From: Synechococcus sp. CBW1002 | Lineage (GTDB): Bacteria; Cyanobacteriota; Cyanobacteriia; PCC-6307; Cyanobiaceae | Direction of reading: 5' to 3' | Assembly (NCBI RefSeq): GCF_015840915.1 | Contig: NZ_CP060398.1 | Span: 2,976,001-3,040,000, forward strand | Length of the DNA: 64,000 nucleotides | In this document: positions 1-37,187 of the stretch, one piece after another | Numbering within the stretch: position 1 is the first letter of the stretch | Layout: the number at the start of each line of letters is the position of its first letter | Program-made: the position numbers and the translations under genes | Notes under the pieces: generated by a model | Told to the model about the DNA's origin: nothing | The model's input: the letters and a program-made list of their open reading frames with translations, nothing else | Databases searched by the model: none

Positions 1-430
1 CGTTAGGATTTTGAAGAACTGCTTCTCGTAAAATTTTGGCTGCGTTATCAGCATCTCCGAGCTGTTGCAAGAATGATGCTAGTGCAGTTACATCCAGCTT
101 CTTGGTCGGCTTCTGTAGAAGAGCCCTGCTCGCGTACTCTTGTGCTAAAACTTTATTACCTTCTTGAAGCCTCAGCTTACCAATACGAGAAAGCAATCTG
201 ATGTCTTCAGGTGTTAATGAAAGTGCTTTTTCAAGGTGAGCCATTGCAACTGCGGCATCACTTTCTGATCGAGCAATTGCAGCCATGGCTACGTGATATG
301 GAGCGTAGAGTTCCCCATCAGGAACTCCGGCCAAGATCCGCCTTGCTTCAGGAAAATTCTTCTCATTAACGATCAGAGAGCGCACCTGCTTAAAGGTAGA
401 TTTCAAGTGACCTGGAAGCACCGAAGCCAT
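1..430 (-). CDS. TPR-like repeat protein, N-terminal part (runs off the window)
   Basis: The reverse strand stays open for 143 codons from an ATG at 428-430 to the window edge, so the C-terminus is outside. The protein begins MASVLPGHLKSTFKQVRSLI and then shows helix-turn-helix pairs with TPR spacing: a pair around FPEARRILAGVP, a pair around AVAMAHLEKALSLTPEDIRL, and further pairs ending in AQEYASRALLQKP and AKILREAVLQNP. The A-x-x-x-L-x-x-A-L-x-x-x-P pattern is typical of TPR hairpins, which serve as protein-interaction scaffolds. There is no signal peptide. The gene is A+T-richer than the IS DNA next to it, like the cluster at 12163-15511, and probably belongs to the same native locus. TPR units often accompany sulfotransferases in picocyanobacteria, which fits the sulfotransferase at 13459, but the link is inference. 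Confidence 0.7.
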   Translation of the reverse strand, partial: MASVLPGHLKSTFKQVRSLIVNEKNFPEARRILAGVPDGELYAPYHVAMAAIARSESDAAVAMAHLEKALSLTPEDIRLLSRIGKLRLQEGNKVLAQEYASRALLQKPTKKLDVTALASFLQQLGDADNAAKILREAVLQNPN

Positions 431-10180: not shown

Positions 10181-11446
10181 TGAGGTGGTCTGGCTTTTCT
10201 GGACAGGCCCCATCGTTAACCTCTGAGGCGGGGTACCGCCCCTGAAAGGGGCTCCCACCGATGAGCAAGCGCCGCACCCACAGCCCCGAGTTCAAGGCCA
10301 GGGTCGCCATGGAGGCGATCAGTGGCCGCAAGACGATCCAGGAGATCGCCGCCGACCACGCCATCCACCCGATCCAGGTGAGCCAGTGGAAGCGGCAGCT
10401 CCTGGACGGTGCCAGCGAGCTCTTCACCCGAGGCAAGAAGACCAAGGACAAGGAGGAGGGGCAGGCCAAGGAGGCGGAGCTGTTCCAGCAGATCGGACGG
10501 CTGCAGATGGAGCTGGAGTGGCTCAAAAAAAAGTCTCAACTGCTCTGATGCCCGTGAACTGCGCAAGCTGGTCGATCACGACCACCCCGAGCTCAGCATC
10601 AGCAGGCAGTGTGCGCTGCTGGGGCTGCCTCGATCCACGCTGTACTACCGGCCGACACCGGTCCGTGTATCGACGCTGCGGATCATGGCCAGGATCGATG
10701 CTCTCTACCTGGAGGATCCCTGCAGCGGCAGCCGCCGGATGGTGGACTATCTGGCCCAAGATGGTATCCCGATCAGCCGAGATCGAGTGCGAAACCTCAT
10801 GCGGCGCATGGGATTACGGGCGATCTACCAGAAGCCCCGGACGACGGTTCCAGGTGATCCGTCCGTGCGGTTCCCCTGCCTGGTGGACCTCACGCAGGTC
10901 ACGTCGGTGGATCAGGTCTGGGCGACCGACATCACCTACATCCCTCTGCAGAAAGGGTTCCTCTATCTGGTGGCGATCATGGATCTCCATTCCAGGCATG
11001 TGCTCAGCTGGAGGCTCTCCAACAGCCTTGACACGAAGTTCTGTCTGGAGGCCCTGGAGATGGCCTTGGGAGGCGGCCGTAGGCCAGAGATCTTCCACTC
11101 CGATCAAGGCTGTCAGTTCACGTCCGCTGACTTTGTGGCCAGACTCAAAGGGGAGCGGATCCAGATCAGCTGGTCCGGCAGAAAGCGGTGCTACGACAAC
11201 ATCCTTGTTGAACGGCTGTGGAGGACTGTCAAGTACGAGGAGGTCTACCTACGGGCATACAGCGATGGCTGGGACGCTGAAATCAGCCTGGCCCGCTTCC
11301 TGTGGCGGTATTGCCATGTAAGACCTCACAGTTCCCTTGGAGGCAAAACTCCCCACGCGGTCTACACTGAGGCCGAACCATGTTCCACCCGTCCTGGGTT
11401 AACGATGTCAGGGGCCGGAACTGTCCAATAAAAGGCACCCACCTCA
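10181..11446 (+). mobile_element. IS3-family element copy C, intact
   Basis: This 1266-bp element has the ends TGAGGTGGTCTGGC and GGCACCCACCTCA and the target duplication GAG (10178-10180, 11447-11449). It sits inside the right inverted repeat of the outer ISDol1-like element. Confidence 0.92.
10261..11431 (+). CDS. IS3 orfAB transposase, copy C (programmed frameshift)
   Basis: OrfA (10261-10548, 95 residues) has an HTH (IQEIAADHAIHPIQVSQWKR) and a coiled coil. The A8 run at 10525-10532 allows a -1 shift into orfB, which ends at 11431. The fusion carries HTH_21 (LYLEDPCSGSRRMVDYL) and an rve core with Asp in ATDITYIPL, Asp in IFHSDQGCQF and Glu in ILVERLWRTVK. OrfB has no good start of its own, so the fusion is the likely active transposase. 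It is identical to copy D. Confidence 0.9.
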
Positions 11447-12162: not shown

Positions 12163-12903
12163 ATGTTTACTCTTTTCCTGCCTGGCAGTTTTCGCCGCAG
12201 TTCAGATTATGTCTGGTTGAGTAAATGCTTGGCTCATAATAGCGACTTTTATACTGTTGATTATCCGGTTAGCTCTACTGTAGCCAAATTAAACTCTGAG
12301 TTCTATGTTTCAGACTGTTTACTACAGGTTCGTCGTGAACTAATCTATGGTAGCCAATCAACATCAGATTCAAGACTTTCGATTGCCTATGAGGAGTCAG
12401 TCATTGGATCATTTTTAGGGCAAGTTAGGAAACGTCATGGCAAATCAATTTCTGATCATGAGATCCTTTCTCAAACACTAATCATTGGTCATAGTCAAGG
12501 AGCAGGGCACGCCGCAGTTATTGCTATGGATAACAGTCTTAACGGCGTACTGCTCATTTCAGGACCAGCTGATTCATACCAGCATGTTCCTTCTTCCTGG
12601 ACCGGGATCAGGGCAAGAACTTCCAGAAGTCGTTATAAAATGTTTGTCCATGCTGAAGATAGACATTCGAGAATGTGTCTATACCATTCAACACTTCTTG
12701 GATTACAGAATATTAGCGTACTCACGGAGTCATCTAAACTAGAAGATATCATATCCAGTCAAGTTGTCATTGACACACGGCCCTTGCCCCCCTTAAAATC
12801 ACATGACTGCTTGACGTTCGATTCCGAAAAGCTTGATGACTTCAATAAGTTATATTTATCTGCAGTTATTGCCAAACATAATTCAGCTCTAGTGCCTTTT
12901 TAA
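12163..12903 (+). CDS. Alpha/beta-hydrolase-like protein
   Basis: This 246-residue protein begins MFTLFLPGSFRRSSDYVWLS, a typical first strand of an alpha/beta-hydrolase. It contains the nucleophile elbow IIGHSQGAGHAAVIAM near residue 110. A later Asp (LLISGPADS, or HAEDRHS) and a late His would complete the triad. There is no signal peptide, so it is probably cytoplasmic. It opens a co-directional run with the acidic protein, sulfotransferase and 14447 protein. A role as thioesterase or esterase on the product of the KS-AT enzyme (26105-29404) is possible but inferred. The substrate is unknown. Confidence 0.65.
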   Translation: MFTLFLPGSFRRSSDYVWLSKCLAHNSDFYTVDYPVSSTVAKLNSEFYVSDCLLQVRRELIYGSQSTSDSRLSIAYEESVIGSFLGQVRKRHGKSISDHEILSQTLIIGHSQGAGHAAVIAMDNSLNGVLLISGPADSYQHVPSSWTGIRARTSRSRYKMFVHAEDRHSRMCLYHSTLLGLQNISVLTESSKLEDIISSQVVIDTRPLPPLKSHDCLTFDSEKLDDFNKLYLSAVIAKHNSALVPF

Positions 12904-12944
12904 TGAGTACTTACTCGCGTTAATTGAACTTAATCGATTCAGCA

Positions 12945-13472
12945 ATGAAGACCTCCCCGTTTTTTAATTTCCTTCCCCCTGCATCTGTGGACAACTCTTC
13001 TCATGAACCTCATGACAATGAAGATTCGCAGCACGAGATCGCCAATTCCATCGACTCTTATCTCGAAGTCTTGATGGAACGAGCTAATCTTGACAGCACT
13101 GTTGCTGGTCGAGAAAATAGTATTGAATACAATACACTGACGCAGATTGTTTCAGTTTCCCGAAAAGATGCTGATCAATCTTACGTTGATGTCTCCGATG
13201 ACGAAGATGCTGAACATCAGCTTGATCCACAGCCATCAAGTTCTGAGCTTGTAGCGGAGCCCTTCAGTGAGATGGAGTCTGAAAATGCTCATGTAGCGTT
13301 ATTTAAATTTTTGTTTGAGCCAATTGATTCTTCTACTGTAAATGACGAGTCACCTGATTTAGTTCTTTCCACTGAACTCATTAATGATCTTCAGGACCTG
13401 AAGGACAGGATGCAACATCGCTACAATGTCATAAGGCGCAATCTTTTCAACAGCTCAAATGGTCATGATTGA
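12945..13472 (+). CDS. Acidic hypothetical protein
   Basis: This 175-residue protein of unknown function begins MKTSPFFNFLPPASV; a TTG seven codons upstream is a weaker start. It is rich in Asp, Glu and Ser (DVSDDEDAEHQLDPQPSSS) with a more ordered, basic C-terminal helix (LINDLQDLKDRMQHRYNVIR). It overlaps the next gene by 14 nt, suggesting translational coupling with the sulfotransferase. The shape suggests an adaptor or intrinsically disordered partner, but no family is recognised. Confidence 0.6.
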   Translation: MKTSPFFNFLPPASVDNSSHEPHDNEDSQHEIANSIDSYLEVLMERANLDSTVAGRENSIEYNTLTQIVSVSRKDADQSYVDVSDDEDAEHQLDPQPSSSELVAEPFSEMESENAHVALFKFLFEPIDSSTVNDESPDLVLSTELINDLQDLKDRMQHRYNVIRRNLFNSSNGHD

Positions 13473-14442
13473 TCCTATTTTTTTATTGAGTCCGCCTCGT
13501 TCTTTCTCATCAGTTGTTTCGTCTATTATTGGCCAGCATCCTGATCTCTATTGTTTTCCTGAGCTCCACCTTCTTTATCGTGATGACATAGGTCATTTAC
13601 TATCTAATAAGTCAAACATCAAGTATGCAAGATTTGCACCTAGTGGCCTTCTGAGAGCAATCGCACAGGTTCACGAAAACAAACAAGATAGTGCAGCCTG
13701 TAGCCGTGCTTGGATGTGGCTGGCGAACAATCAGTCAATGACTAGCAAGCAGCTGTTTGAATATCTATGCAATGCCTATTATCCTAGGGTCTGTATCGAG
13801 AAGTCGCCGCCAAATACTAAGACAATTGATCGCATGATCAGATTATTTAAATACTATCCAAATGCCAAATTTATTCATCTTACGCGAAGTGTTGTCGGTG
13901 CTTCAAAATCTTTGAAGGAGTTCTTCGAGTTTAGGCGTACAGTTAATAGTCCTGCGGCAGGGCATCCTATGGTTAAGGAGAACTATGCTTTAATGTGGTA
14001 TGCCATGCATCGCAATATACTGAAGTTTCGCTCTATTGTTCCGCCTTCCAACTTCCTTACTGTTAGTGGGGAGGCAATTCTATCTGATCCACGAGTAGTT
14101 CTACCTCAACTATGTCGCTGGCTTGGTGTCTCGGACGATAGTTTATGCATTGATGAGATGCTCAAGCCTGAGGCGTCCCCTTATGCCTTTTATGGTCCAC
14201 GTATGGCACCTTGTGGCAATGATCCGAAGTTTATAACTAATCCGGAGTTTCGGCAAATGAGGCGAAAAAAATATTCTCAATACGATGTACGGGAGTATCT
14301 TCTTTCTAATGGACGACCTGCATTTACTCGTTCCTACCTTGATAAGCTTGATGATGAAGCAACTATAGAACGCCTACATTCCTGGGATTACTCTATGCTT
14401 GAACTAGTTATGGATATGGAGGCACAACTTGGCTACGCCTGA
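13459..14442 (+). CDS. Sulfotransferase-family protein
   Basis: This 327-residue protein has the PAPS-dependent sulfotransferase fold. The 5'-phosphosulfate loop is FLLSPPRSFSSVVSSIIGQH near residue 8, and a 3'-phosphate-binding segment FIHLTRSVVGASKS lies near residue 138. A downstream ALMWYAMHRNILKF helix is also typical. Members transfer sulfate from PAPS to hydroxyl or amine groups of small molecules or glycans. The start overlaps the acidic protein by 14 nt, and an ATG two codons later is also possible. Together with hydrolases and a KS-AT enzyme it suggests a sulfated acyl or polyketide product, or sulfation-assisted decarboxylation; both are inference. Confidence 0.75.
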   Translation: MVMIDPIFLLSPPRSFSSVVSSIIGQHPDLYCFPELHLLYRDDIGHLLSNKSNIKYARFAPSGLLRAIAQVHENKQDSAACSRAWMWLANNQSMTSKQLFEYLCNAYYPRVCIEKSPPNTKTIDRMIRLFKYYPNAKFIHLTRSVVGASKSLKEFFEFRRTVNSPAAGHPMVKENYALMWYAMHRNILKFRSIVPPSNFLTVSGEAILSDPRVVLPQLCRWLGVSDDSLCIDEMLKPEASPYAFYGPRMAPCGNDPKFITNPEFRQMRRKKYSQYDVREYLLSNGRPAFTRSYLDKLDDEATIERLHSWDYSMLELVMDMEAQLGYA

Positions 14443-14446
14443 ACGA

Positions 14447-15511
14447 ATGAATTTACTTTCTATTCCCCTCCCTGGAGGGACCAACGATACTCAGCAAATA
14501 TTGGCTGTCCATCAGTCAATTAATTCTGTCGGAATGTGGATTCTTCTTTCTACGACTTCTTCTCGCACTCTTGTCTACTGTACATCATCTAATTCTGATT
14601 CATGCTTTGTACTTCCGTACAATTTTGTTTATCTTGGTTCATCGCTCAATGGTGAGTTATTTTTCATAACTGACGAAACCGAAAGCGCTAAATCCTTGTT
14701 GTATATTATAAATTTTGATCCTTCTTTTGGCATCAAGGTGACTAACGTTAATATTAAGTTTAAGCCCAGTCATTTGAATGAACTACTTAAATACTGTAAG
14801 CCTCGTATTGACCTGGCAGGTTCTTCTACTTTGAATAATTCTCCTTTACTTAATGATAATGCGCTCAACGAGGCTACCTTAACTTCTGTTTGTGTTCCAT
14901 TCCATAGTTATCGCGATGTTTTATCTATTAGAAATATTACACTGCCAATATCATCTTGTTATGAATGCAATTCAAGCATTGCCAACGCTATCTCTGTCTT
15001 TCAATCTCACTATCCGTACCTGTCGCTTGTTGATGCTATTGAGCTCCGTGATCATTCGGTTGTACTTATAGCCAATGATTCTTCTATAAGAACTTTGAGT
15101 TGTGGGGTTGAATCCAGACTGTTTACCTGTAAGGGCTCGGCTAAGCCAACCCTTGTTCTTGGACGTTCTCTCTTCTCCATTGATAATTCATTATCGATAG
15201 CACCTTCTGCGTCAGGCTTAGTTCACCCATCACTAGGCTTAGTCTTAGCCTCTTCACATGATTGTGACTTGTCTGCTAAGGTTTGTCAGTCTAACATGCT
15301 TTGTGTATTAAGCCTAGATTATACCACAACTTCTATGTTTTGTTCATCTGACAATGGTTCTACATTTTTTTTAGTCGATAAAGTAGTGCATCGTGATCAT
15401 GACCTTGTGCCGATGCTTATTCATCATCTTGATCATTCCCAAACCCTCTTTTATTCCTCTCGAGTTGATCGCTCAGCTATTTATTTCTTAAATAATTTTT
15501 TCATTTCATAA
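14447..15511 (+). CDS. Hypothetical beta-rich protein
   Basis: This 354-residue protein has no recognised family. The ATG giving MNLLSIPLPGG lies just after the sulfotransferase stop; a TTG six codons earlier overlaps it. The sequence alternates short hydrophobic strands and Ser/Thr/Asn loops (GMWILLSTTSSRTLVYCTSS, ELFFITDETES) in a way reminiscent of beta-propeller blades. It has an unusually high number of Cys and Ser residues and no signal peptide. It ends the four-gene run and is interrupted from the rest of the locus by IS DNA. Confidence 0.6.
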   Translation: MNLLSIPLPGGTNDTQQILAVHQSINSVGMWILLSTTSSRTLVYCTSSNSDSCFVLPYNFVYLGSSLNGELFFITDETESAKSLLYIINFDPSFGIKVTNVNIKFKPSHLNELLKYCKPRIDLAGSSTLNNSPLLNDNALNEATLTSVCVPFHSYRDVLSIRNITLPISSCYECNSSIANAISVFQSHYPYLSLVDAIELRDHSVVLIANDSSIRTLSCGVESRLFTCKGSAKPTLVLGRSLFSIDNSLSIAPSASGLVHPSLGLVLASSHDCDLSAKVCQSNMLCVLSLDYTTTSMFCSSDNGSTFFLVDKVVHRDHDLVPMLIHHLDHSQTLFYSSRVDRSAIYFLNNFFIS

Positions 15512-18498: not shown

Positions 18499-19764
18499 TG
18501 AGGTGGGTGCCTTTTATTGGACAGTTCCGGCCCCTGACATCGTTAACCCAGGACGGGTGGAACATGGTTCGGCCTCAGTGTAGACCGCGTGGGGAGTTTT
18601 GCCTCCAAGGGAACTGTGAGGTCTTACATGGCAATACCGCCACAGGAAGCGGGCCAGGCTGATTTCAGCGTCCCAGCCATCGCTGTATGCCCGTAGGTAG
18701 ACCTCCTCGTACTTGACAGTCCTCCACAGCCGTTCAACAAGGATGTTGTCGTAGCACCGCTTTCTGCCGGACCAGCTGATCTGGATCCGCTCCCCTTTGA
18801 GTCTGGCCACAAAGTCAGCGGACGTGAACTGACAGCCTTGATCGGAGTGGAAGATCTCTGGCCTACGGCCGCCTCCCAAGGCCATCTCCAGGGCCTCCAG
18901 ACAGAACTTCGTGTCAAGGCTGTTGGAGAGCCTCCAGCTGAGCACATGCCTGGAATGGAGATCCATGATCGCCACCAGATAGAGGAACCCTTTCTGCAGA
19001 GGGATGTAGGTGATGTCGGTCGCCCAGACCTGATCCACCGACGTGACCTGCGTGAGGTCCACCAGGCAGGGGAACCGCACGGACGGATCACCTGGAACCG
19101 TCGTCCGGGGCTTCTGGTAGATCGCCCGTAATCCCATGCGCCGCATGAGGTTTCGCACTCGATCTCGGCTGATCGGGATACCATCTTGGGCCAGATAGTC
19201 CACCATCCGGCGGCTGCCGCTGCAGGGATCCTCCAGGTAGAGAGCATCGATCCTGGCCATGATCCGCAGCGTCGATACACGGACCGGTGTCGGCCGGTAG
19301 TACAGCGTGGATCGAGGCAGCCCCAGCAGCGCACACTGCCTGCTGATGCTGAGCTCGGGGTGGTCGTGATCGACCAGCTTGCGCAGTTCACGGGCATCAG
19401 AGCAGTTGAGACTTTTTTTTGAGCCACTCCAGCTCCATCTGCAGCCGTCCGATCTGCTGGAACAGCTCCGCCTCCTTGGCCTGCCCCTCCTCCTTGTCCT
19501 TGGTCTTCTTGCCTCGGGTGAAGAGCTCGCTGGCACCGTCCAGGAGCTGCCGCTTCCACTGGCTCACCTGGATCGGGTGGATGGCGTGGTCGGCGGCGAT
19601 CTCCTGGATCGTCTTGCGGCCACTGATCGCCTCCATGGCGACCCTGGCCTTGAACTCGGGGCTGTGGGTGCGGCGCTTGCTCATCGGTGGGAGCCCCTTT
19701 CAGGGGCGGTACCCCGCCTCAGAGGTTAACGATGGGGCCTGTCCAGAAAAGCCAGACCACCTCA
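18499..19764 (-). mobile_element. IS3-family element copy D, intact
   Basis: 1266 bp with target duplication GTG (18496-18498, 19765-19767). It lies between istB and the right end of IS21 copy 2. Confidence 0.92.
18514..19684 (-). CDS. IS3 orfAB transposase, copy D (programmed frameshift)
   Basis: Identical to copy C. OrfA (19397-19684) ends after the A8 slippery run, and the -1 frame gives the DDE-carrying orfB, which ends at 18514 with the C-terminus TMSGAGTVQ formed by the terminal repeat. The element is presumably active. Confidence 0.9.
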
Positions 19765-22383: not shown

Positions 22384-23727
22384 TCAAGCAGAGGCAACAA
22401 GTTGAAAACCAAGGGCAATGGCGCGTCGCTGGAGACCACGAATCTGACGATCCCTTGATTCCTCCTGATATGCGGCAGCACCGGGATCCTGATATACCAA
22501 ACCATCACGGAGCGTCTTGTAGTAAAGAATGGCAAGCTTTCGGGCAGTAGCAATTAATGCTTTACTCTTTCCGGCACGTGCTGCCAGACGACGTTGAAAA
22601 GCACCCAGTGCAGTATTCGTTCTTCCCAGCGGTACGGCAGCCATCCAAAAGGCACTACCTGCTCGCGTAGTGCCCTGTCGTGTTCGTGAAGAAAGTACCT
22701 TTCCCCCTGAGATCCTGTTCTGAGGACTGAGTCCCAGCCATGACACAAAATGCTGGGCACTGGGCCAGCGCTTCATGTCCAACCCACACTCACTAATGAG
22801 CGTGAGAACTGTTGTTGGTCCTAATCCCGGAAGCCTTAGAAGATTGTGGCCTGACAAGGCTTGAATTAGGTGGGTTGGGTTAAATGCAAAGCCATGTCCG
22901 CATATCTTCCAATCCCCAGGTTGACTGCCTGGATCTTGATAGTCCGAGCCGGCAAGCTCTGTCATCAATGATTGTGCCGCAAGCTCGCAGGCCCTGATCT
23001 TCTCTGAATAGGTGTCAAAGAGCTCAACTGCGATCTTCAAAGAGAACAAGTGATCGTCTTGGTAGTTCCCCTCAAGAGCAGCCGCAATTGTTGCCGCGCT
23101 CTCCTTGCAGCGTCTGTCTCGGAGAGAAGCGAGTCTTTCGGGGTCCCTCTCACCTGAAAGTATGGCATCGATGATTCGCCTACCGGTTAGTCCGCTGATA
23201 TCTCTGACAACATGATGAAGCTGAAGATTCATAAGCATCAGCGCCTTCTGGATGTGTTGCTGATGAGACGAGCGGTATCGAACAAGTTGATCACGCTGCC
23301 GCAGATATGAGCGTAGTTCTGTGATTTTTTGGTCTGGACGAAAGCTTGCTCTCACCAGGCCGTAGCTGTGGAGCTGCTGAAGCCATTGTGCATCGTTGAT
23401 ATCCGTCTTGCGGCCCGGAACATTCTTGGCGTGCCTGGCATTAACAAGAAAGACGTCAATGCCTTTGCCAGAGAGAATCTCGTAAAGCGGAACCCAGTAG
23501 ATTCCAGTGGACTCCATGGCAATGGTGCTAATTCCAACTGCCAGCAGCCATTCGGCGAGTGCGATTAGATCCTTTGTGAAGCTTGAAAACTTGCGGACGG
23601 GATTCGGATCAAGCTCGACAGGAACAGCAACAACGTGGAATCTACTGCCGACATCAATTCCAGCGGAACGAGGGTTAATGACTTTCAGACGAGCTCGGCG
23701 CTTGCCTGCTGAAATTGGTTCTCCCAT
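22384..23727 (-). CDS. IS110-family recombinase, intact
   Basis: This 447-residue DEDD/serine recombinase has an N-terminal RuvC-like domain (SAGIDVGSRFHVVAVP, AMESTGIYWVPLYEI, VPGRKTDINDAQWLQQLH) and a C-terminal Tnp_20 domain (LLRLPGLGPTTVLTLISECG, FVSWLGLSPQNRISGGKVLS) that carries the catalytic serine. IS110 enzymes act with an element-encoded bridge RNA and leave no inverted repeats. A truncated second copy lies at 7846-8662. Confidence 0.92.
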   Translation of the reverse strand: MGEPISAGKRRARLKVINPRSAGIDVGSRFHVVAVPVELDPNPVRKFSSFTKDLIALAEWLLAVGISTIAMESTGIYWVPLYEILSGKGIDVFLVNARHAKNVPGRKTDINDAQWLQQLHSYGLVRASFRPDQKITELRSYLRQRDQLVRYRSSHQQHIQKALMLMNLQLHHVVRDISGLTGRRIIDAILSGERDPERLASLRDRRCKESAATIAAALEGNYQDDHLFSLKIAVELFDTYSEKIRACELAAQSLMTELAGSDYQDPGSQPGDWKICGHGFAFNPTHLIQALSGHNLLRLPGLGPTTVLTLISECGLDMKRWPSAQHFVSWLGLSPQNRISGGKVLSSRTRQGTTRAGSAFWMAAVPLGRTNTALGAFQRRLAARAGKSKALIATARKLAILYYKTLRDGLVYQDPGAAAYQEESRDRQIRGLQRRAIALGFQLVASA

Positions 23728-24415: not shown

Positions 24416-25330
24416 ATGGCATCTAACCTTTGGAAGTCTTTGCTCCGTTGCAAGCGATTTCTTCGTAAGCCGTCCTCTCAGCTATCGTCATCACGCTTGC
24501 CCTCAGAGGTTTCTGTTCATTGTCATAGTGATATTTGTTACGCGCCGTCGCTCAAGGCCTCTCATGGTGACAAGGTGACCCTTGATGTCTTTAAGCTTGC
24601 GTCTACGCCTGCCAAGGGAGCTGTTATCTTTCTGCATGGAGGAGGGCTTAGGAGGGGATCCAAGAAGCATGTCCTAGGCAAGGATTTATACTTTAACTCT
24701 CTCGGTTATAACTTTGTCTCATGCAACTATCCTTTGTCCGCTGAATGTACTGCTTGTCTGATCGATGACCAGCTGCTGGCTCTGCGATCACTTGACAAGT
24801 GGGTCGGAACCGAGTTGCGTACACTTTCTCAAGTCGAACCTTCTTCGCCAGTCATCTTCCTGGGGCATTCGGCAGGCGCATACTTGCTCGCATTGGCGGT
24901 CTCCAAGGGGCTCTTCTGCAATCCTCGTACATCATTTATTCTTGTTGATTCAGCGGCATATGACTTGTCTAAGCGATATGGGGCGGCTCGTCCGAATGTT
25001 AGGCTTGAGATAGAACGCCTAGTCGGCTATGAGGATGGCAATAAAGGTAGCCTAGATGAGCTCATCAGTGCCTATTCTCCCGTAAGTAATCTGCTGCAAT
25101 GCCCTGCAGGTGGCCCTGGTCCCGACATGGGTTGGGTCTATCTCGCAACTACGAGGAAGCGTTTCAGTCTTGACAGTTCCACTGTCCTTGCATCACTTCT
25201 TAAGAGTAAGTTGAACATGCATGCTTCGGTCAAAGCCTACCCGCTCAGCCATGTGGATATCTCGCGAGAGATAGCCTACCCAGATAGCGAGATTGGCAGG
25301 GACATCGCCCATTTGTTAGGCAATATGTAA
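24416..25330 (+). CDS. Alpha/beta-hydrolase, carboxylesterase-like
   Basis: This 304-residue alpha/beta-hydrolase has the oxyanion-hole motif FLHGGGLRRGSKKHV near residue 73 and the nucleophile elbow IFLGHSAGAYLLALAV near residue 150. The late HVDISREIAYPDSEIGRDIA could supply the triad His. The N-terminus is basic with no signal peptide. It resembles the product at 29762-30844 in all these blocks, so the two are paralogues flanking the PPTase and KS-AT genes. Possible roles are release or deacylation of the pathway product; the substrate is unknown. Confidence 0.75.
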   Translation: MASNLWKSLLRCKRFLRKPSSQLSSSRLPSEVSVHCHSDICYAPSLKASHGDKVTLDVFKLASTPAKGAVIFLHGGGLRRGSKKHVLGKDLYFNSLGYNFVSCNYPLSAECTACLIDDQLLALRSLDKWVGTELRTLSQVEPSSPVIFLGHSAGAYLLALAVSKGLFCNPRTSFILVDSAAYDLSKRYGAARPNVRLEIERLVGYEDGNKGSLDELISAYSPVSNLLQCPAGGPGPDMGWVYLATTRKRFSLDSSTVLASLLKSKLNMHASVKAYPLSHVDISREIAYPDSEIGRDIAHLLGNM

Positions 25331-25444
25331 TGGCCTGTTGGATGGCTGAGAGACTGGCCTTATGGGGTGGGAATTCGTATGATTCACGTATCCTTATGTC
25401 TATGATTGTCGAATTAAAGAGGGTTCAGTCAAGCAGTCACAGTA

Positions 25445-26101
25445 CTACAAGCGCTGCTTGGCCACGGAAATAGTCCAGTCAGCCTCGGCTATTCCTTTCC
25501 CGCCATAGTAATGGTCTTGAAAAGCTGCTTCAAATGAAAATGTGCAGGGCCAAGCCACTGATTCACCTGTGTAGAAGCTGATGGACAATAGACGAAAGTC
25601 GGCTTCGGAAACGAGACCACCATATAACTTGAAGCCAGCTTCAAAGATTGTCCAGATGCAACAACATACAATCTCAGTTGGCAACTGATTTGCTGGTACA
25701 GGCATGGGCCACCGCATGTAAGCAAAAATGGCTTGCCAATCATGGCCTGCGACATGTTCGATGTCTAGACCGATTGCAGAGTGATCTGTAATGCCAACGA
25801 GCACCAGTCCACGAGAATGTGAAACAGATACAAATAGACCGTGGAGATTCTGCTGGCAGTAATAAAGCTTGGGTGGGCTGGCAGGCGGACCGTAGAGCTC
25901 CAGTTGAGATGCAGCAATAGAACCATGTTTCAGCCATTGTTGCAACAGAAGCTTGCCCATTAGACGGCTGGCCACATAGTCAGCTATTCGCTTGTTATGA
26001 CGAAGCCTAGAAACATACCACTTCTCTTGATCGGATAAATACTTCTCGGAAAGATACTGGCATAACAGTGTGTCAGGTGCCTTTGCCAGTAGCATTGACA
26101 T
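25445..26101 (-). CDS. Sfp-type 4'-phosphopantetheinyl transferase
   Basis: This 218-residue protein would transfer phosphopantetheine from CoA to carrier-protein serines. It has the substrate-binding SVSHSRGLVLVGI, the metal-binding IGLDIEH and the C-terminal helix WTIFEAGFKLYGG. The canonical W-x-x-K-E-x-x-x-K signature here reads W-T-I-F-E-A-G-F-K, so the first Lys is Phe while Glu and the second Lys remain. The start ATG lies 3 nt after the KS-AT stop codon, so the two genes form an operon. That suggests a dedicated activator for a carrier protein of the same pathway, although no carrier is visible in the window. Confidence 0.8.
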   Translation of the reverse strand: MSMLLAKAPDTLLCQYLSEKYLSDQEKWYVSRLRHNKRIADYVASRLMGKLLLQQWLKHGSIAASQLELYGPPASPPKLYYCQQNLHGLFVSVSHSRGLVLVGITDHSAIGLDIEHVAGHDWQAIFAYMRWPMPVPANQLPTEIVCCCIWTIFEAGFKLYGGLVSEADFRLLSISFYTGESVAWPCTFSFEAAFQDHYYGGKGIAEADWTISVAKQRL

Positions 26102-26104
26102 TGA

Positions 26105-29100
26105 TTAATCAACCTGTTTTAGGATCTGCTTTGAGCTGGCTTCTGCGCTGGCCAGAATCGTCAAGATGGTTCGGCTGTGCTCCAGCAGAAGTTGTTGGCC
26201 CAGCACAGGATCCTGCTCTTTGACAACCGGGACAGGTAATGCGTTCGGGCTGGATGTGGATCTGGCTCCAGAGGAGGTGGGATCACTGATAACCGCCATG
26301 GAGGTAGGGTCCTGGGCAGACACGGTCTGGCTAGACGACTCACTTCGGCTTCCTGAAGAAGGGGGGACGACGTCTGAAGCTAGTGAGGTCAGAAAGTCCC
26401 TGAGCCCGACGGAGTTATATTGAGGAATTTCTGAATGAACCGGGACTGCGGTTGCTGGCTTGATCACGGTCGCCAGGCCTGTTCGATAGCGTTCGATGAA
26501 AAGGCCATCGAGAGCTCCCAGATTGAGGTCCAGCCCCGATGTCCACAGGATTGCCACCGACTGGAGAAAGGCAGTGGTGCTGTCTTTACGGGAGGTCCCT
26601 AGCGAGACAGCAACAATGTCTGGGAATTCAGAAAGTGCTTCCTTCGTATAACTAGTGAGCGTAGTATTTGGCCCCAGCTCAATAAAGTATCTGGCTCCGT
26701 CGGCATACATATTTCGGATCGTCTCTTCATACCTGACAGGATTGAGCCACTGATCGATAAAAATCTGCATCCCTTGCTCATAGTCAGAGGGATAGGGCTT
26801 GGTTGTCAAGCAGCTGTATGCGACTGCATGATGTGATTCGAATTGTATCGAATGAGGAAACTCTCTATAGAGTCTACGATGCGTTTCGGCACCATTTTTG
26901 AAGTATCGTGTATGATATGGTCGTGTTAATGGGGTCGGCAAGATGTTGCCTCCAGCAGCAGCTATGTGCTCAACCAGCTCCTCGCAGAAGTCAGCCTCAG
27001 AAAATACGACGCGCTGTGAGCGACAGTTGTCAGAAATTAACGACCATTCAGATCGCATCTTTAAAATAGTATTAAGTTGGCCTAGTTCAAGTCCAGAGAT
27101 TGCAAACGTCGACCCCTCAGGGAACTCATCGATCGAATCGGCTTTCGAGAAGAACTCATGAATTTGCTTTATCCTTGTCCTAAGGTCATCCTGATTCTTC
27201 ATTGTGGCTAGGCTACCTGACAGCATCACTGCATTAGACTCTCCTTGGCTATGTCCAACCAGCTGATCTGGCCGCAGTCCTATGCGAGAGGCAATTTCAT
27301 AGAAGGACATCAGGCACGCAGCAATAATTTGCGTGGCTGAATCCTGAGCATAAAGAAGCTCAATTCGCCTTGCATTGGCTGATCTGGCACAGTCTAAGTC
27401 AGCATTCGGCAAGCAAGTGACTAATCCGAGTGGGATCTCACGGCCCAAAGCCTCATCCATGAAATTATACCAATACGCAAATAAATCAATGTTCGTTGTC
27501 AGGTCGCCGAGCATTTCAGGCGATTGTACTCCTTCTCCAGGAATTAGGAATGCTATCTTTCCTCGTGAATCTGCCGACTCAGAATAAATAAAGTGACGTC
27601 CACGATGACTTGATGACGATGGATTGGATGCCAGCCAAGATGAGGCATCCTGCAGACCCTCGCCAAGATTTCTGTGCGATGATGCAAAGATAACTAGTCG
27701 GGTTGCAGCTCTCGATGACTGGTTGTTGCTATGGGTCGATTTGAACAGGACTGCCTGATGTATCTTGTCAACTTCAAGACCAGCAATTAAGTCTTGTAAT
27801 TCAGAGCGCGAGTCTGCCTCAAGAAAGATAGCTCGACCAGTTGTGGTATAGCCTTGGTGCTGATATTTGAGTAATCCACGGTAAGTCTTTCCAGATGAAT
27901 CATTGCCAATGCTTGGATCAGTATCAGCAAGGAGATCTGGCGACTTTGAGGCCGTATATGGGAACAGAATGACGGGCGATCCAGCCTGCTGATTAGAATC
28001 CGTGAATTCCTGAAGCAGTAAGTGCCCATTGATTCCTCCAAAGCCGAAGGAATTAATGGCTGCAATACGTGGCTTTGCGGGTGAATGGAACCAACGTCGA
28101 AGCGTGCGATTAATATAGAAAGGGGTGGAGTGATCAGCGACAGCTTCTAACGGATCTGGACAAACTGATGGTGGAAGTAGTTTATTCTGAAGGGCGAGCG
28201 AGGCCTTGATCAGGCTGGCAACGCTAGAGGCGGGAATTGTATGGCCAATCAGAGATTTGCTTGATCCAACGGCAATTGTGGATAGGCCACGATGACAGCC
28301 CTCGAAGACTTCCAGCATCGATGAAAGTTCGGTGTTGTCACCATGCGGAATTCCTGTAGCATGAACTTCTACTAGTGAAACATCTGAAGGCTTAATGTCG
28401 CATTTCTGATATGCTCTCTTCATTGCCAGCACCTGTCCTTGACGATTTGGTGCAAGCAAACCCTCACCTTTGCCATCGCTGGCCAAGGCGACTGAACGGA
28501 TAACAGAATATATCGGGTCGCCAGATTCTACTGCATCTGACAAACGCTTCAAAGCAATGAAGCCAACTCCTTCGGAAAGCAGTGTTCCGGATGCGGACTT
28601 TGACATTGGGAATATTCCTTCTTCCGATAAGGCATTAATTGTGCAAAACAACTGGTAAATTGGGAAATTCATCGTGGCCTGAACTCCGCCAACAAGCATT
28701 AGATCAGCGTCGCCAGTATCTAGTTGCTTGATTGCATGATCTACTGCGATCATGCCCGAAGTGCAGGCACCATCTACAAGGTGGTTTGGACCAAGTAGGC
28801 CAAGCCTGTTCGCAATCGTCCCAGAAACAACGTTAGAGATGAGATTGGGCGTTATTGCGGGGTCAGTAACCAGCTCAAAAGCGGACGAAAGCAGTGATCG
28901 GAGTTGCTTCCTTCGCGCTCCTTTGAGAACTGCACCCACGGAATCTGCAAGAACATCAATGAAATGCTCCAAGATCATCCCATTCATCAACGCCCCGACG
29001 ATGCCTCGATGAGGATGGTCACCCATGCCGACCACCACTCCGGTCCGTTCATGGGGAATCCATTCCGGTGCCCGTCCGCGCAATGCGTCAGCCATTGCCT

Positions 29101-29404
29101 CGGCGGCCACCTGGAGGCAAAGGTACTGCGATGGATCGCCTTCAACAAGGTTTGGAGGAAATGCGAACCGAAGGCAATCTATCCAGCTATTTTCGGCGAT
29201 TGACCCATATTTCTTGGTGTATATCGTGGAGTAAGATTCTCGTGGGTTGGACCTGTCCTGGTCTTTGCTGTAGTAAAGACTGGCCCAAGGATCAGTCATC
29301 TCCTTTAGGAGTGATTCCCCTCTAACAAGTGCTTGCCAGTAAGATGAGGTGTCCTTGATCCCTGGATATCTGCATGCCATGCCTACAATTGCGTAGCCCT
29401 GCAT
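26105..29404 (-). CDS. Stand-alone KS-AT polyketide synthase
   Basis: This 1099-residue protein has a ketosynthase (about 1-470) with a complete Cys-His-His set: Cys214 in VDGACTSGMIAV, His348 in VEVHATGIPHGD and His388 in SSKSLIGHT. An acyltransferase follows (about 615-930) with AFLIPGEGVQS, Ser719 in LVGHSQGES and a likely His831 in RPYHTRYF. After a Ser/Thr/Pro-rich linker the tail DPVLGQQLLLEHSRTIL resembles the helical hook after the AT in PUFA- and heterocyst-glycolipid-type synthases. There is no KR, DH, ACP or TE. The KS active-site context differs from the usual DTACSSS. It probably condenses acyl units on a separate ACP; the product is unknown. Confidence 0.85.
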   Translation of the reverse strand: MQGYAIVGMACRYPGIKDTSSYWQALVRGESLLKEMTDPWASLYYSKDQDRSNPRESYSTIYTKKYGSIAENSWIDCLRFAFPPNLVEGDPSQYLCLQVAAEAMADALRGRAPEWIPHERTGVVVGMGDHPHRGIVGALMNGMILEHFIDVLADSVGAVLKGARRKQLRSLLSSAFELVTDPAITPNLISNVVSGTIANRLGLLGPNHLVDGACTSGMIAVDHAIKQLDTGDADLMLVGGVQATMNFPIYQLFCTINALSEEGIFPMSKSASGTLLSEGVGFIALKRLSDAVESGDPIYSVIRSVALASDGKGEGLLAPNRQGQVLAMKRAYQKCDIKPSDVSLVEVHATGIPHGDNTELSSMLEVFEGCHRGLSTIAVGSSKSLIGHTIPASSVASLIKASLALQNKLLPPSVCPDPLEAVADHSTPFYINRTLRRWFHSPAKPRIAAINSFGFGGINGHLLLQEFTDSNQQAGSPVILFPYTASKSPDLLADTDPSIGNDSSGKTYRGLLKYQHQGYTTTGRAIFLEADSRSELQDLIAGLEVDKIHQAVLFKSTHSNNQSSRAATRLVIFASSHRNLGEGLQDASSWLASNPSSSSHRGRHFIYSESADSRGKIAFLIPGEGVQSPEMLGDLTTNIDLFAYWYNFMDEALGREIPLGLVTCLPNADLDCARSANARRIELLYAQDSATQIIAACLMSFYEIASRIGLRPDQLVGHSQGESNAVMLSGSLATMKNQDDLRTRIKQIHEFFSKADSIDEFPEGSTFAISGLELGQLNTILKMRSEWSLISDNCRSQRVVFSEADFCEELVEHIAAAGGNILPTPLTRPYHTRYFKNGAETHRRLYREFPHSIQFESHHAVAYSCLTTKPYPSDYEQGMQIFIDQWLNPVRYEETIRNMYADGARYFIELGPNTTLTSYTKEALSEFPDIVAVSLGTSRKDSTTAFLQSVAILWTSGLDLNLGALDGLFIERYRTGLATVIKPATAVPVHSEIPQYNSVGLRDFLTSLASDVVPPSSGSRSESSSQTVSAQDPTSMAVISDPTSSGARSTSSPNALPVPVVKEQDPVLGQQLLLEHSRTILTILASAEASSKQILKQVD

Positions 29405-29761
29405 CGAACTTTTTTAGCTGTCTTTCAGATTAGCATGATTATGAGCAGTGCAGACTGTAGGCACGCCGCCTTCGCACTCAAGTAATCCCTCCCTGTCTGC
29501 ACCACCATCGGCTGCGGTGCTGACGCAGGCTCTTTCATGCTGCACTGAGCAAGCTGAACTGCTCTGTAACGAAGGGACTTCCGATCCCAAGAACTTATCT
29601 TATATTCATTGCTCTAAACCGATGAGTCTGACATCTGCCAGCACTGCAGACCTCAGCTATTGATCCACGAGAAGCAGTGCAGTCGTGGTCATGTTCAGTC
29701 TGTGCAGATTGGCGAATGCGATTGACGGATAGATGGGCATTTGGAAGTACGCGGATACATG
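29405..29761. other. Intergenic region between KS-AT and lipoprotein esterase
   Basis: 357 bp without a convincing gene. It is the upstream region of the KS-AT/PPTase operon. No strong Shine-Dalgarno sequence precedes the KS-AT start. Confidence 0.5.
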
Positions 29762-30844
29762 TCAATGTTTTAGGGCTCCAAGGATGGCCGCTCCTGTGCT
29801 GCTTCCAGGTTCTCCGATGCTCGTGTGCATCTCTTTGTGGTCATAAGGATGAGACGAGACCGAGGCGTTGAACGCCGAGCATTCATTGAGGGCACTCGCG
29901 AACGACCTGATTTCGTCCTGCTGTTTTTCTGGCCGCTGGGTTGAATACATGACCATCACCTCAGTCGGAGATGATTTCTTTGGACATGATGTCCTGACAA
30001 GTTGAGCAGGAACCCATTCTGCAATAAGGGAATTCTTGCCTGGCTCGCTTACGGCACTCTGCCCAAAAATTGCGACAAGGCTATCCTTGTATCGACGAAC
30101 TTTGCCTGTATACCAATTGGAGTCGTTCAGGATAAATTTGCTATAGATGTCTGCTGTTTTCCGATAGGATGGACTTGTGAGGGTAAGTGCTGCTAGATAG
30201 GCCCCTGCTGAATGCCCAATCATGGATGCATCTTTCATGGTGCATGAAGGTGAGGTTCTTCTTAGATTGCCTTCAAGCCATGCTGTGGCGGAAGCAACTG
30301 CACTCATCTGCTGCGCGATCAGCCCCTCGATCGGGCGTCCATACACTGGATAGTTTAAGGAGACAAGGCAGAAGCCATTGCGATTCAGCAGCTCGGGCAT
30401 GGATCCGACACTCCTTTTATCGCCTCTCATCAGAGATCCTCCATGAATATATACAAGTGTCGGACAAGGAGGCCCAGATGACTGCCTGCAAGCAAATATT
30501 TCGAGAGTATTGCTGCCTGCAGGAGCCCCTGGAATCAATGCTGAATAGGGCCATCCACCTGTTGATACATTGACTGGTTTAGCTGCTGCAGACTGCCTAG
30601 GGCCGCCCTGCATGCGGCGCTGGAATGACCTGGCCATAGCGCAGCTTGAGAGTATGGTTTCCGTCAGCAGCAAGATGGCCAAGAGCAGCAGCGAAGACTT
30701 CCATTTTCTACCCGGCGGTTGTGAAACCTTCTCTGCATGCGGGCCTGCAAGGATTGCCTTGGTTCGGCTCTGAGATCGTGACTTCTTGTTTGGTGGAGAG
30801 TTGAAACTAAAATAGTTTCGTTGAACCATGAATTGTTTTGCCAT
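29762..30844 (-). CDS. Alpha/beta-hydrolase, probable lipoprotein
   Basis: This 360-residue protein starts at the ATG (MAKQFMVQRNYFSF) that is preceded by a strong AAAGGAGG ribosome site; an upstream start 38 codons earlier lacks one. A basic leader of about 50 residues is followed by the hydrophobic stretch SLLLLAILLLTETILSSC, whose LSSC fits a lipobox, so membrane anchoring is likely. The catalytic part has VYIHGGSLMRGDKRSV, SMIGHSAGAYLAALTL and a late HPYDHKEMHTSIG. It is paralogous to the esterase at 24416-25330. An extracytoplasmic copy beside a cytoplasmic one suggests product export or surface tailoring, which is inference. Confidence 0.75.
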   Translation of the reverse strand: MAKQFMVQRNYFSFNSPPNKKSRSQSRTKAILAGPHAEKVSQPPGRKWKSSLLLLAILLLTETILSSCAMARSFQRRMQGGPRQSAAAKPVNVSTGGWPYSALIPGAPAGSNTLEIFACRQSSGPPCPTLVYIHGGSLMRGDKRSVGSMPELLNRNGFCLVSLNYPVYGRPIEGLIAQQMSAVASATAWLEGNLRRTSPSCTMKDASMIGHSAGAYLAALTLTSPSYRKTADIYSKFILNDSNWYTGKVRRYKDSLVAIFGQSAVSEPGKNSLIAEWVPAQLVRTSCPKKSSPTEVMVMYSTQRPEKQQDEIRSFASALNECSAFNASVSSHPYDHKEMHTSIGEPGSSTGAAILGALKH

Positions 30845-31299
30845 GTTTCCTCCTTTGAGTTCGATGGATGAGGTCGATGCTTTGAACAGAAACGTCTTCG
30901 AGTGCTTCTTGAGGGCATTGTACCTGGAATAGTCAAGGGACATGACAGCGGCTGTCATGTGCGAAACGGCCGATGTCTCCTGGCGCTGAGTCGTCTTCTC
31001 CCTTCATGCGCGAGCATGATCCATTGCGGCAACTGGATACTCCGGCCTCGCGATACTTTCAGTGGCTCCCAGCGATGGTGCGTTGTCAAGGAGTTTCGGT
31101 TGAAGTTAGTAACATCTCCGCTGTCTGAAGCTCAGCTTGGTCGACACCTTCAGGGGGGGGGCTCGACCCGAATCCAAGCTCGGTTTCTTAAGTGTTCAGG
31201 GAAGCGGGACAGCACTAGGGGAAGGCCGACTCTGCTGAACCCCTTACGCCTCCCTGAATTCCGGCATCAACTTAGGCTGGGAGCGCTTGCGATGAGGAC
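30845..31299. other. Upstream region of the lipoprotein esterase and edge of IS remnants
   Basis: The ribosome-binding site of the reverse-strand esterase is at about 30848-30858. The rest is non-coding; base composition turns GC-rich near 31130, where degraded IS DNA begins. Confidence 0.5.
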
Positions 31300-31825: not shown

Positions 31826-34800
31826 TCGGGCATGCAGAAGCGCAAGACCTTTCGCCCCTGGCAGCCGCAGCAGGCCACCCTGCTGCCGCCGTCACCGCGT
31901 GAGTGGCTCTCAGAAGACCACCAGGTGTATTGGCCGCGTCCCTTGGCGTGGTGTAAATCCCGAGGCCCGATTGCCCTGGACTGAGGGAGAACAGGGGTGA
32001 ATGACGGGCTGTCATTCTCGAGGCGCATGTGCACCTCGTTATTTCACGATGAATCCAGACGATTGACTTGTCAAGTCTTTCGTCTGGATTGCCGATCGGT
32101 TGTGGGCTACACCTGCAATCTTGGTCGTGACGTCTGCGGTGCCGGCCCCCGGGCGGTGATCGCCGCCGCTGCGCCCTGTGGGGGCGCTACGGCGCGATCT
32201 CCTGGGGCCTGAGGCTCAGGCCGCTGCTTCTTGCAAGGAAGGCTGCGTGGGCAGCTCCGCCAGTGAGGGGATGGCGGCCATGCTCTCGGCGGAGAACATG
32301 CGCCGGCCCTCCAGCTGCCAGTGCTCGTCCTGCTCCAGCAGCACAGCCCCCACCAAGCGGGTGATCGAGGCGTCATTCGGGAAGATGCCAACCACCCGAG
32401 TGCGGCGTTTGATCTCCTCATTGAGGCGCTCGAGCAGGTTGGTGCTCCAAGTCTTTTTCCAGTGTTGAGGCGGGAAGTGACGGAAGGCGAGCACGTCTTC
32501 CCGGGCGTGCAGCATGAGCTCAGCAGCCTTGGGGAAGCGATCCACCAGTGAGCTGGCCAGATCGTCCCAGCGGGCCTCGATTTCGTCCGTTTTCTCCTGG
32601 GCGAACACCGAGCGCAAGGCAGCGGTGACCATGCCTTGGTGGGCCTTGGGCACCCGTTGGAGCAGGTTTCTGGCGAAATGGACCCTGCAGCGCTGCCAGC
32701 AGCTGCCCTGCAGCATCCGCCGGATCGCCTTGGTGAGGCCCACGTGCGCGTCGCTGATCACGAGCTTGACCCCAGTGAGGCCGCGCTCCTTGAGCGAGCC
32801 AATGAACTCGCTCCAGAAGCTCTCGGTTTCGCTGTCGCCCACCTTGATGCCGAGCAGCTCGCGGCGACCATCGGCATTGACGCCCATGGCCACCACCACA
32901 GCCCTGGAGCAGACCTGCATCGCCTTGCCGAGACGCCCGTGGAGATAGGTGGCATCGAGGTACAGGTAGGCGTAGCCGGTGGCCTCAAGGGGGCGGTTCA
33001 GGAAGGCCTGCACCTGGATGTCGATGTCAGCGCAGATGCGGCTCACCTGAGATTTGGAGATGCCGCTCTGGACTCCCAGGGCGGCCACCAGGGCGTCGAC
33101 CTTGCGCGTTGAGATGCCGCCGACATAGGCCTCCATCACCACGCCGTAGAGGGCCTGGTCCACACGGCGGCGCGGCTCCAGGATCGAGGGCAGGTGGCTG
33201 CCGGAGCGCAGTTTGGGGATGCGGAGATCGATGTCCCCCACCTGGGTGGCCAGGGTGCGCGGCCGGTAGCCGTTGCGGTAGCCGAGCCGCTCCTCGCTGC
33301 GCTCATGGCGCTCTGCGCCGAGCACGGCAGCGACCTCCAGCTCGATCAGCTGCTGCAGGCCGTGGCGCACCAGCTCGGGGATCAGCTCACCGGCGCTGCT
33401 GCCATCCAGTAGCGGCGCCAGCTCAATTGCGGCACGATTGGACGTGGGCGTGTGTCACGAGTCAGCAGGTGAAAGCCAAGGCTGATGAAACTGCATCGGG
33501 GATGGGAGTGTGGCCTCCCGGGATCGGCCTGCAGGGGCTGGTACCAAACCACCCCGTGCTGCTGCGTTCAAAAGACGTGGTGGTGAGCGACGGGGAAACG
33601 GCGGACTGGATCCGTCAGGTGTGCGACGAGAAGGTGAGCGCAAGCGAACCGTTGATGACGCGCCGATATCTATTTCAGACGCTGCCAAAACGGGAGGCGG
33701 CCCAAATCTCCTGGATCAGTGTGGACAGAGCCTGTCTATGGACCACACGGCAGCCGGCGTATAGACGGCACGAGCTCATCGCAGGCCCTGATGCGGAACG
33801 TGAGAACCTGCCATGGAATGCCAAGGGAACATCCCAAGTGGTCACCACCATGAGGGTCAATACCGATGTCTGTGGCAGGGGCGGAGCAACCCGTAGTAGC
33901 GATGATGGGTCTGTAACGGACTCGGAGCCAAGGGGTTGCATCATCCCGTTTGGAGTCTCCCATCAACTGCCTACGGCAGGAGGAATGGGATGACAACAGA
34001 CAAGCCGCTACCGATTACCAAGGTGATGGTCTGGAAGGCCTATCAACAGGTGAAACGGAACGGACAGGCGGCCGGTGTGGATGGCCAAAGCCTGGACGAC
34101 TTCAACAAGGATCTGGAGAATAATCTCTACAAACTCTGGAATCGGATGGCATCAGGAAGTTATCTTCCGCCACCAGTTCGGCGTGTGGAGATTCCCAAAT
34201 CCGGTGGAGGCGTCAGGCCGCTGGGTATCCCGACGGTTGCTGATCGCATCGCACAGATGGTGGTCAAGCAGGTGCTGGAGCCAGAGCTGGAGCTGATCTT
34301 TGATCAGGATTCCTACGGCTACAGACCGGGCAAGTCAGCGCATCAGGCAGTAGAGGTCTGCCGTCAGCGCTGCTGGAGGTCCAACTGGGTTCTCGATCTC
34401 GACATCAAGGGGTTTTTCGATGCTATCGATCACGACCTGTTGATGCGCGCGATCAAGGCCCATACCTCCGAGCGCTGGGTGGTGCTCTACCTGCAACGAT
34501 GGCTGCAGGCACCGGTTCTGTTGCCGGATGGCACGCTCCATCCCAGGGACCGGGGCACACCGCAAGGTGGTGTCATCAGTCCACTGCTGGCCAATCTGTT
34601 CCTGCACTATGCGTTTGATGTGTGGATGCGCCGGAGCCACCCGGCCATTGCCTTTGAGCGCTATGCAGATGATGTGATCTGTCATTGCCACAGCGAGAAG
34701 GAAGCTCGGCGGTTGCTGGAGGCATTGCAGGATCGCTTTGCGTCCTGTGGCCTCCAGCTTCATCCCCAGAAGACCCAGGTGGTCTACTGCAGGGATAGCA

Positions 34801-34891
34801 ACCGCCGGGCACCGCTTGCTGATGTCACGTTCACGTTTCTTGGTTTCGCGTTTCGGCCACGTGTGTCTCGCAATTCTCGCGGAGTCATCTA

Positions 34892-36658: not shown

Positions 36659-37187
36659 CATCTACACAGGCTTTTTGCCGGCAGTGAGTCCGCAGGCTCT
36701 CCAGCGTATGCGGGAGAGGATTAGGTCGATAGGGCTTCCATCGCTCGTGTATCTGTCGCTTGAGGAGATCGCTAAAGTGCTGAATCCAGTGATTCGTGGC
36801 TGGATTCAGTACTACGGTCGTTTCTATAGGACAGAACTGATCAGGAAGTTGTATCGCTACCTGGATGACAGAATTGCAGCCTGGTTACGGCAGAAGTACA
36901 AAAGGCTGCGGGGTCGTCGGCTCCAAAGCTGGCGAGTACTTGCCAGGATCAGGTCTGGACATCGTGATCTGTTCGCGCACTGGCGTCGAGTCAGTGAAGT
37001 GGCATGTGGATGATGGGAGCCGTATGACGCGAGAGTGTCACGTACGGTTCTGTGAGCACCTCGGGGGGAAGTTCCCCGGGGTGACTCGACATGGTTCGTC
37101 TGGTTGAGGTAGTGCTCAAACCAGGGTCACGGGCCTGCCCACCCCTTGCAACGCTGGCCGCTGAGCGGAACGTCTGAGGTGCGCGCT

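Follow-up and report, generated by a model that had tools for sequence, protein, structure and literature searches.

Gene content and dispersal of the cluster

The analysed window comprises 64,000 nucleotides (positions 2976001-3040000) of the host genome, a single contig of 3.85 Mb (G000) that is G+C-rich and IS-rich and shares its GTDB family with Cyanobium sp. FGCU52 and Synechococcus sp. Tobar12-5m-g. An operon of a KS-AT gene and a phosphopantetheinyl transferase (PPTase) gene, which begins 3 nt after the KS-AT end on the same strand (-), two related esterases, a run of genes at 12163-15511 and a TPR gene were all found as open reading frames where an initial annotation of the window had placed them (Table 1). 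Its remark that these genes are A+T-richer than the rest agrees with a GC content of 38-50% in the cluster genes versus roughly 55-70% in IS blocks and backbone. The esterases are homologous to each other (about 26-27% identity) and share the sequence GHSAGAYL. Structure prediction for the 360-aa protein from four sequences gave no usable model (pLDDT 44).

The A+T-rich island extends beyond the window start (2976001) by 34 kb on the upstream side, to about G000:C1:2942046. The annotation had seen no acyl carrier protein (ACP), which is true inside the window, but two ACP domains are encoded upstream in the same island, one forming the end of a 1949-aa synthase and the other the start of an ACP-sulfotransferase. 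In G162 and G320, two genomes from the family of the host, all cluster genes lie together in about 30 kb without IS blocks, ACPs included. The IS-free relatives that the annotation had proposed to look for thus exist, and its view of a single biosynthetic locus pulled apart by IS elements is borne out.

Table 1. Features of the cluster and of the IS elements around it. Plain positions refer to the window; those beginning with G000:C1 refer to the contig and lie upstream of the window.
Feature	Position	Strand	Remarks
TPR protein, N-terminal part in window	1..430	-	Whole gene G000:C1:2975399-2976430, past window start; 91% identical to G162, 81% to G320
IS copy	10181..11446		Forms an inverted repeat with 18499-19764 (1266 nt, 100% complementary arms)
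Alpha/beta hydrolase, BPSS1187 family	12163..12903	+	NF047580 3e-21, below its cut-off; present in G162 and G320 clusters
Acidic protein, no family match	12924..13472	+	Kept in G162 and G320
Sulfotransferase, 327 aa (Sulfotransfer_3)	13459..14442	+	PF13469 4e-25; closest solved structures are OLS and CurM sulfotransferases
Uncharacterised 360-aa protein	14429..15511	+	Kept in G162 (78%) and G320 (52%)
IS copy	18499..19764		Forms an inverted repeat with 10181-11446 (1266 nt, 100% complementary arms)
IS110-family transposase	22384..23727	-	IS block before KS-AT block; NF033542 3e-74
Esterase 1, BD-FAE-like alpha/beta hydrolase	24416..25330	+	Pfam matches weak and below cut-off; found in the clusters of G162 and G320
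PPTase	25445..26101	-	Weak HetI/AusB matches; GLDIE motif; PF01648 on KS-AT-DH fusion in relatives
KS-AT, second synthase subunit	26105..29404	-	Family matches; 82% identical in G162, 78% in G320
Esterase 2, paralog of esterase 1	29762..30958	-	PF20434 4e-9, above cut-off; in G162 and G320 clusters
ACP-sulfotransferase, 438 aa	G000:C1:2943902-2945218	-	
KR-DH	G000:C1:2952457-2954613	-	Position as called
ER-KS-AT-ACP synthase, 1949 aa	G000:C1:2955006-2960855	-	Same A+T-rich island
485-aa protein			Upstream in island
Third sulfotransferase-like protein			Upstream in island
864-aa membrane/HlyD protein			Upstream in island

The order and orientation of the gene blocks vary across the three genomes, whereas the blocks themselves are kept: ER-KS-AT-ACP with KR-DH; ACP-sulfotransferase with the 485-aa protein; sulfotransferase with HlyD and TPR proteins; hydrolase, acidic protein, sulfotransferase and 360-aa protein; and PPTase, KS-AT and esterase 2. 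The gaps between the blocks are occupied in the host by IS5, IS21, IS110 and other transposases, and the inverted pair of IS copies brackets the block at 12163-15511. Further along the window, parts of a group II intron were found at 33504-33620 and 37015-37090 with a reverse transcriptase/maturase ORF at 33936-34892; an IS5-family-like copy (35007-36557) directly follows this ORF and appears to sit in the intron. A 786-aa protein with weak matches to RTX/calcium-binding repeats (54763-57123) lies outside the cluster.

Every cluster gene is open in the host genome, and the genes are, judged from substitution patterns, under purifying selection (pN/pS 0.09-0.42 in 15 cluster genes). All four internal IS blocks lie between genes, none inside one. 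The unity and intactness of the cluster are evident from these comparisons, which indicate that it is scattered by transposons, not broken; the locus is dismembered, as the annotation had put it, in the position of its genes only. A decaying, IS-degraded remnant without function would also consist of gene groups separated by IS blocks; rearrangement has occurred, and two genes are damaged in the otherwise IS-free cluster of G162 (the PPTase by an in-frame stop, the HlyD gene by a frameshift; G162:C1:2192198-2192351 and 2203403-2203602). Against the open frames, the low pN/pS values, the intergenic location of the IS blocks and the intact catalytic residues in the host, however, such a remnant is very improbable. 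Divergence from G162 is mosaic within the hydrolase block, with a pS of about 0.32 for 12163-13472 and 14429-15511 and of 0.75 for the sulfotransferase gene between them (13459-14442). This sulfotransferase is 88% identical to the G320 version, and the pattern suggests the replacement of a single gene inside the cluster.

The core synthase and the wider cluster family

The KS-AT of the window had been taken to stand alone; instead, it is the second subunit of a synthase resembling those for polyunsaturated fatty acids (PUFA) and heterocyst glycolipids (Hgl), whose ER-KS-AT-ACP and KR-DH parts are encoded upstream of the window. In relatives, DH and PPTase are joined to the KS-AT in one fusion protein; here the DH is gone and the PPTase is encoded by the following gene, which accounts for the KS-AT/PPTase operon. 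This subunit has the KS triad (Cys214/His348/His388) and, in the AT, the GHSQGE motif and His831. Across the synthase, the KS, AT, ACP, KR and DH domains are all evident with their catalytic residues, of which the Ser/Tyr of the KR and the His/Asp of the DH are invariant in nine relatives. The ACP carries the PUFA-type motif LGIDSIKRIE, and the N-terminal ER is FabK-like (TIGR03151, 2e-18 at residues 318-617, below its cut-off) with ECGGHIG present. KS, AT and KR are closest to PfaA-type models. Since all scores are below the curated family cut-offs, the synthase is a relative, not a member, of the named families, and since the second subunit has one complete KS and no CLF, and thus no KS-CLF didomain as in PfaC/HglC, the same applies to types A/B/F. 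Islands of hgl genes are delimited by at least seven hgl homologs in the cluster, with hglT in true heterocyst islands; among the cluster proteins scanned against family models, none matched a thioester reductase or a glycosyltransferase. On these domain assignments, the cluster encodes an uncharacterised relative of the PUFA/heterocyst-glycolipid-type secondary lipid synthases. Its core would work as an iterative FAS/PKS in the order ER(FabK-like)-KS-AT-ACP and then KR-DH, together with the second KS-AT and a dedicated PPTase.

Other cyanobacteria, and also Chromatiaceae, carry clusters similar to this one. The 485-aa protein is predicted to be a beta-propeller (pLDDT 88), for which a fold search returned generic propellers only (query-normalised TM below 0.5) and no specific structural relative. 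An alignment search with this propeller found 55 loci in named genomes, and in 47 of them homologs of PKSs or sulfotransferases lie in the flanks, at most 10 kb on each side. In two Chromatiaceae loci (L067 and L110), a single run encodes sulfotransferase, hydrolase, sulfotransferase, HlyD protein, ACP-sulfotransferase, propeller, ER-KS-AT-ACP, KR-DH and KS-AT. A gammaproteobacterial metagenome-assembled genome (L061) contains much of the set plus homologs of both esterases and of the 360-aa protein (the latter distant, 27%), and the hydrolase at 12163-12903 has homologs in the Chromatiaceae loci L063, L067 and L110 and in Prochloron (L066). A scan of genome contigs with the KS-AT alone gave no matches, a tblastn search of plasmids with it found distant PKSs only (27-33% identity in the best rows), and further searches for family members led to the same genomes again. 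The cluster family, comprising propeller, ACP-sulfotransferase and secondary lipid synthase, spans cyanobacteria and proteobacteria, and none of the papers searched describes a product for it.

A probable frameshift signal at the ACP-KR junction

The KR-DH of the host lies in the -1 frame relative to ER-KS-AT-ACP and lacks a start codon. It is preceded, at the ACP-KR boundary and outside the window, by an SD-like GAGG and, 10 nt further on, by the slippery heptamer GGGAAAG (G000:C1:2955009-2955015, -). In G000, G162 and G320, the KR-DH frame becomes open 34-40 nt ahead of the stop of ER-KS-AT-ACP, and the junction reads GCAGAGG-N10-GGGAAAG-TA(A/G) with a hairpin about 8 nt past the heptamer. 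Although synonymous sites are near saturation among these genomes, CAGCCGGGAAAGTA is the longest run identical in all three over the gene, tied with two others. No canonical KR-DH start was found upstream of the slip site. Downstream of it, the first 134 codons in G000, 41 in G162, 93 in G320 and 138 in G493 likewise contain none, and in all four the protein encoded in the -1 frame is conserved, beginning at the slip.

GGGAAAG is present between ACP and KR in 14 homologs (the host's site recurs in L116-L121, L123, L124, L129, L130 and L069), nine of them split, with KR-DH in the -1 frame and a 0-frame stop 2-13 codons on, and five fused in frame, with a -1 frame stop 3-10 codons on. Outside this position, these genes and their flanks contain it three times in about 80 kb. 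In five further fused homologs (L122, L126, L127, L128 and L077), four of which are nearly identical to each other, this position is taken by A_AAA_AAA, preceded by GAGG or AGGAGG, and a stop in the -1 frame follows 7 codons later. An SD-like element (match of at least 4 nt) precedes the heptamer in 17 of these 19 members, which are related and not independent rows, at a spacing of 7-13 nt (mostly 9-10 in the GGGAAAG group); G049 and G493 have no 4-nt match upstream of the slip. The downstream hairpin is present in G000, G162, G320, G284, G552 and G126 (with z values between -2.1 and -2.7 for the three closest genomes) and weak or absent in G493, G049 and G246. The distance of the alternative-frame stop alone gives moderate evidence (Fisher p about 0.003, with rows that are not independent), and it is the motif that carries the case for frameshifting. 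L121 has two tandem copies of the slippery element, 24 nt apart. G_GGA_AAG has been reported as highly shift-prone in E. coli (PMC5009743). Literature searches, mostly confined to openly available papers, found no ribosomal frameshifting described in PKS or FAS genes.

The GGGAAAG signal is absent in the Chromatiaceae loci L067/L110 and in L074 and G136. A frameshift general to Hgl-like synthases was rejected, as the ACP-KR junctions of lower-scoring cyanobacterial homologs have no such signal. Three of these homologs (L140, L142 and L144) have A runs upstream of the KR match, with stops in another frame close by, which may represent a slippage site of its own.

Two explanations dispense with slipping. 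Some other synthases have PfaA-like cores divided among separate genes, and KR-DH might likewise be a separate protein made by termination-reinitiation (coupling) or from a non-canonical start; G329, G246 and L069 have an ATG 14 codons past the slip, which in two of them overlaps the stop as TAATG. The 41-138 codons without a canonical start in the four genomes named above, where the -1 frame is conserved throughout, argue against this, as does the exact heptamer in all 14 members, including fused genes in which re-initiation plays no part, and we consider re-initiation improbable. Still less probable is that GGGAAAG is kept only because the peptide Leu/Pro-Gly-Lys is needed. The 0-frame of the GGGAAAG members indeed always encodes (L/P)GK, but GGA makes up 21% of the Gly and AAG 53% of the Lys codons in these genes, and yet all 14 use GGA AAG after G; moreover, the sister group encodes Lys-Lys by a slippery A_AAA_AAA with an SD-like element upstream, and a stop is nearby in the other frame in every case.

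The core enzyme thus very probably depends on a programmed, dnaX-like -1 ribosomal frameshift. We infer from the signal and the reading frames, both evident in the genomes compared, that frameshifting occurs: translation would give ER-KS-AT-ACP, and a fraction of ribosomes would slip at GAGG-N10-G_GGA_AAG-stop-hairpin to give ER-KS-AT-ACP-KR-DH. As KR-DH has no start of its own and would be made as a -1 extension, a short form without KR-DH and a long form with it are expected. In the fused relatives, which keep the signal and whose -1 frame stops at once, frameshifting would instead give the short form, as in E. coli dnaX. A tree of KR-DH requires six changes among four states, with many deep branches unresolved, and the signal seems to have outlasted repeated switches between split and fused frames. 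We consider it likely that the conserved frameshift determines how many protomers carry KR-DH and how many lack it, and that selection acts on the dual output itself, not just on the long product. KS proteins dimerise, so one may speculate that mixed dimers of short and long forms could tune ketoreduction in each cycle. If both forms are needed, reduction in an iterative synthase could be programmed by recoding. Gene callers present such synthases as two genes or drop the first ~130 KR-DH residues, as in the host genome, and the domain order in annotation and antiSMASH would therefore be wrong.

Product and comparison with known systems

The nearest solved relatives of the ACP-sulfotransferase (4gbm, 9e-40; 4gox, 5e-38), as of the 327-aa sulfotransferase, are the sulfotransferases of CurM and of the olefin synthase (OLS). 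Together with the several alpha/beta hydrolases of the cluster, this similarity would accord with a terminal alkene made by the CurM/OLS route, in which a beta-hydroxyacyl chain is sulfated by the ACP-sulfotransferase and a hydrolase encoded separately serves as thioesterase for decarboxylative elimination. The histidines aligned between CurM and OLS are, however, not kept in the ACP-sulfotransferase of this clade, which was therefore not filed as a decarboxylating enzyme; no thioesterase is fused to it, the hydrolase hyd246 has no PDB match, and three sulfotransferases and an HlyD exporter fit a sulfated product better. An alkene is thus unlikely, and a sulfated long-chain lipid is the likelier product. 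Of the small, possibly sulfated acyl or polyketide product proposed in the initial annotation, the association of acyl/polyketide genes with sulfotransferases stood; a long-chain lipid is more likely than a small acyl compound. As to product structure and export, we infer that the second KS-AT and the ACP-sulfotransferase would complete and modify the chain, which would probably be passed to the ACP-sulfotransferase and be modified by up to three sulfotransferases and by hydrolases/esterases; the HlyD protein suggests export of the product. Taken together, we assign a probability of roughly 0.85 to the reading that the window genes are the right-hand part of one intact, IS-scattered cluster of about 16 genes (G000:C1:2942046-3006958) with a -1 frameshift in the core synthase, and that its product is an uncharacterised long-chain lipid, probably sulfated and exported.

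The cluster shares with the PUFA (Pfa) and Hgl synthases (types A/B/F of Shulse and Allen, PMC3098273) the iterative KS-AT-ACP-KR-DH core, the PUFA-type ACP motif, an ER of the FabK/NMO-family flavin type, a second KS-AT subunit and a PPTase. It differs from them by the N-terminal fusion of the ER, a second subunit without KS-CLF didomain or DH pair, the KR-DH in the -1 frame, and the addition of sulfotransferases, beta-propeller and esterases. With the ACP-ST-TE of CurM and OLS it has in common an ACP followed by a PAPS-type sulfotransferase, whereas the fused thioesterase and the aligned histidines are missing here and several sulfotransferases are present. The frameshift signal resembles that of E. 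coli dnaX in its internal SD-like element, its X_XXY_YYZ heptamer, the hairpin that follows it in part of the members and the predicted derivation of a short and a long form from one gene. The heptamer of dnaX is A_AAA_AAG, whereas here it is G_GGA_AAG or A_AAA_AAA and lies in a biosynthetic megasynthase, and this family comprises both arrangements, in which slipping would yield the long form from split genes and the short form from fused ones.
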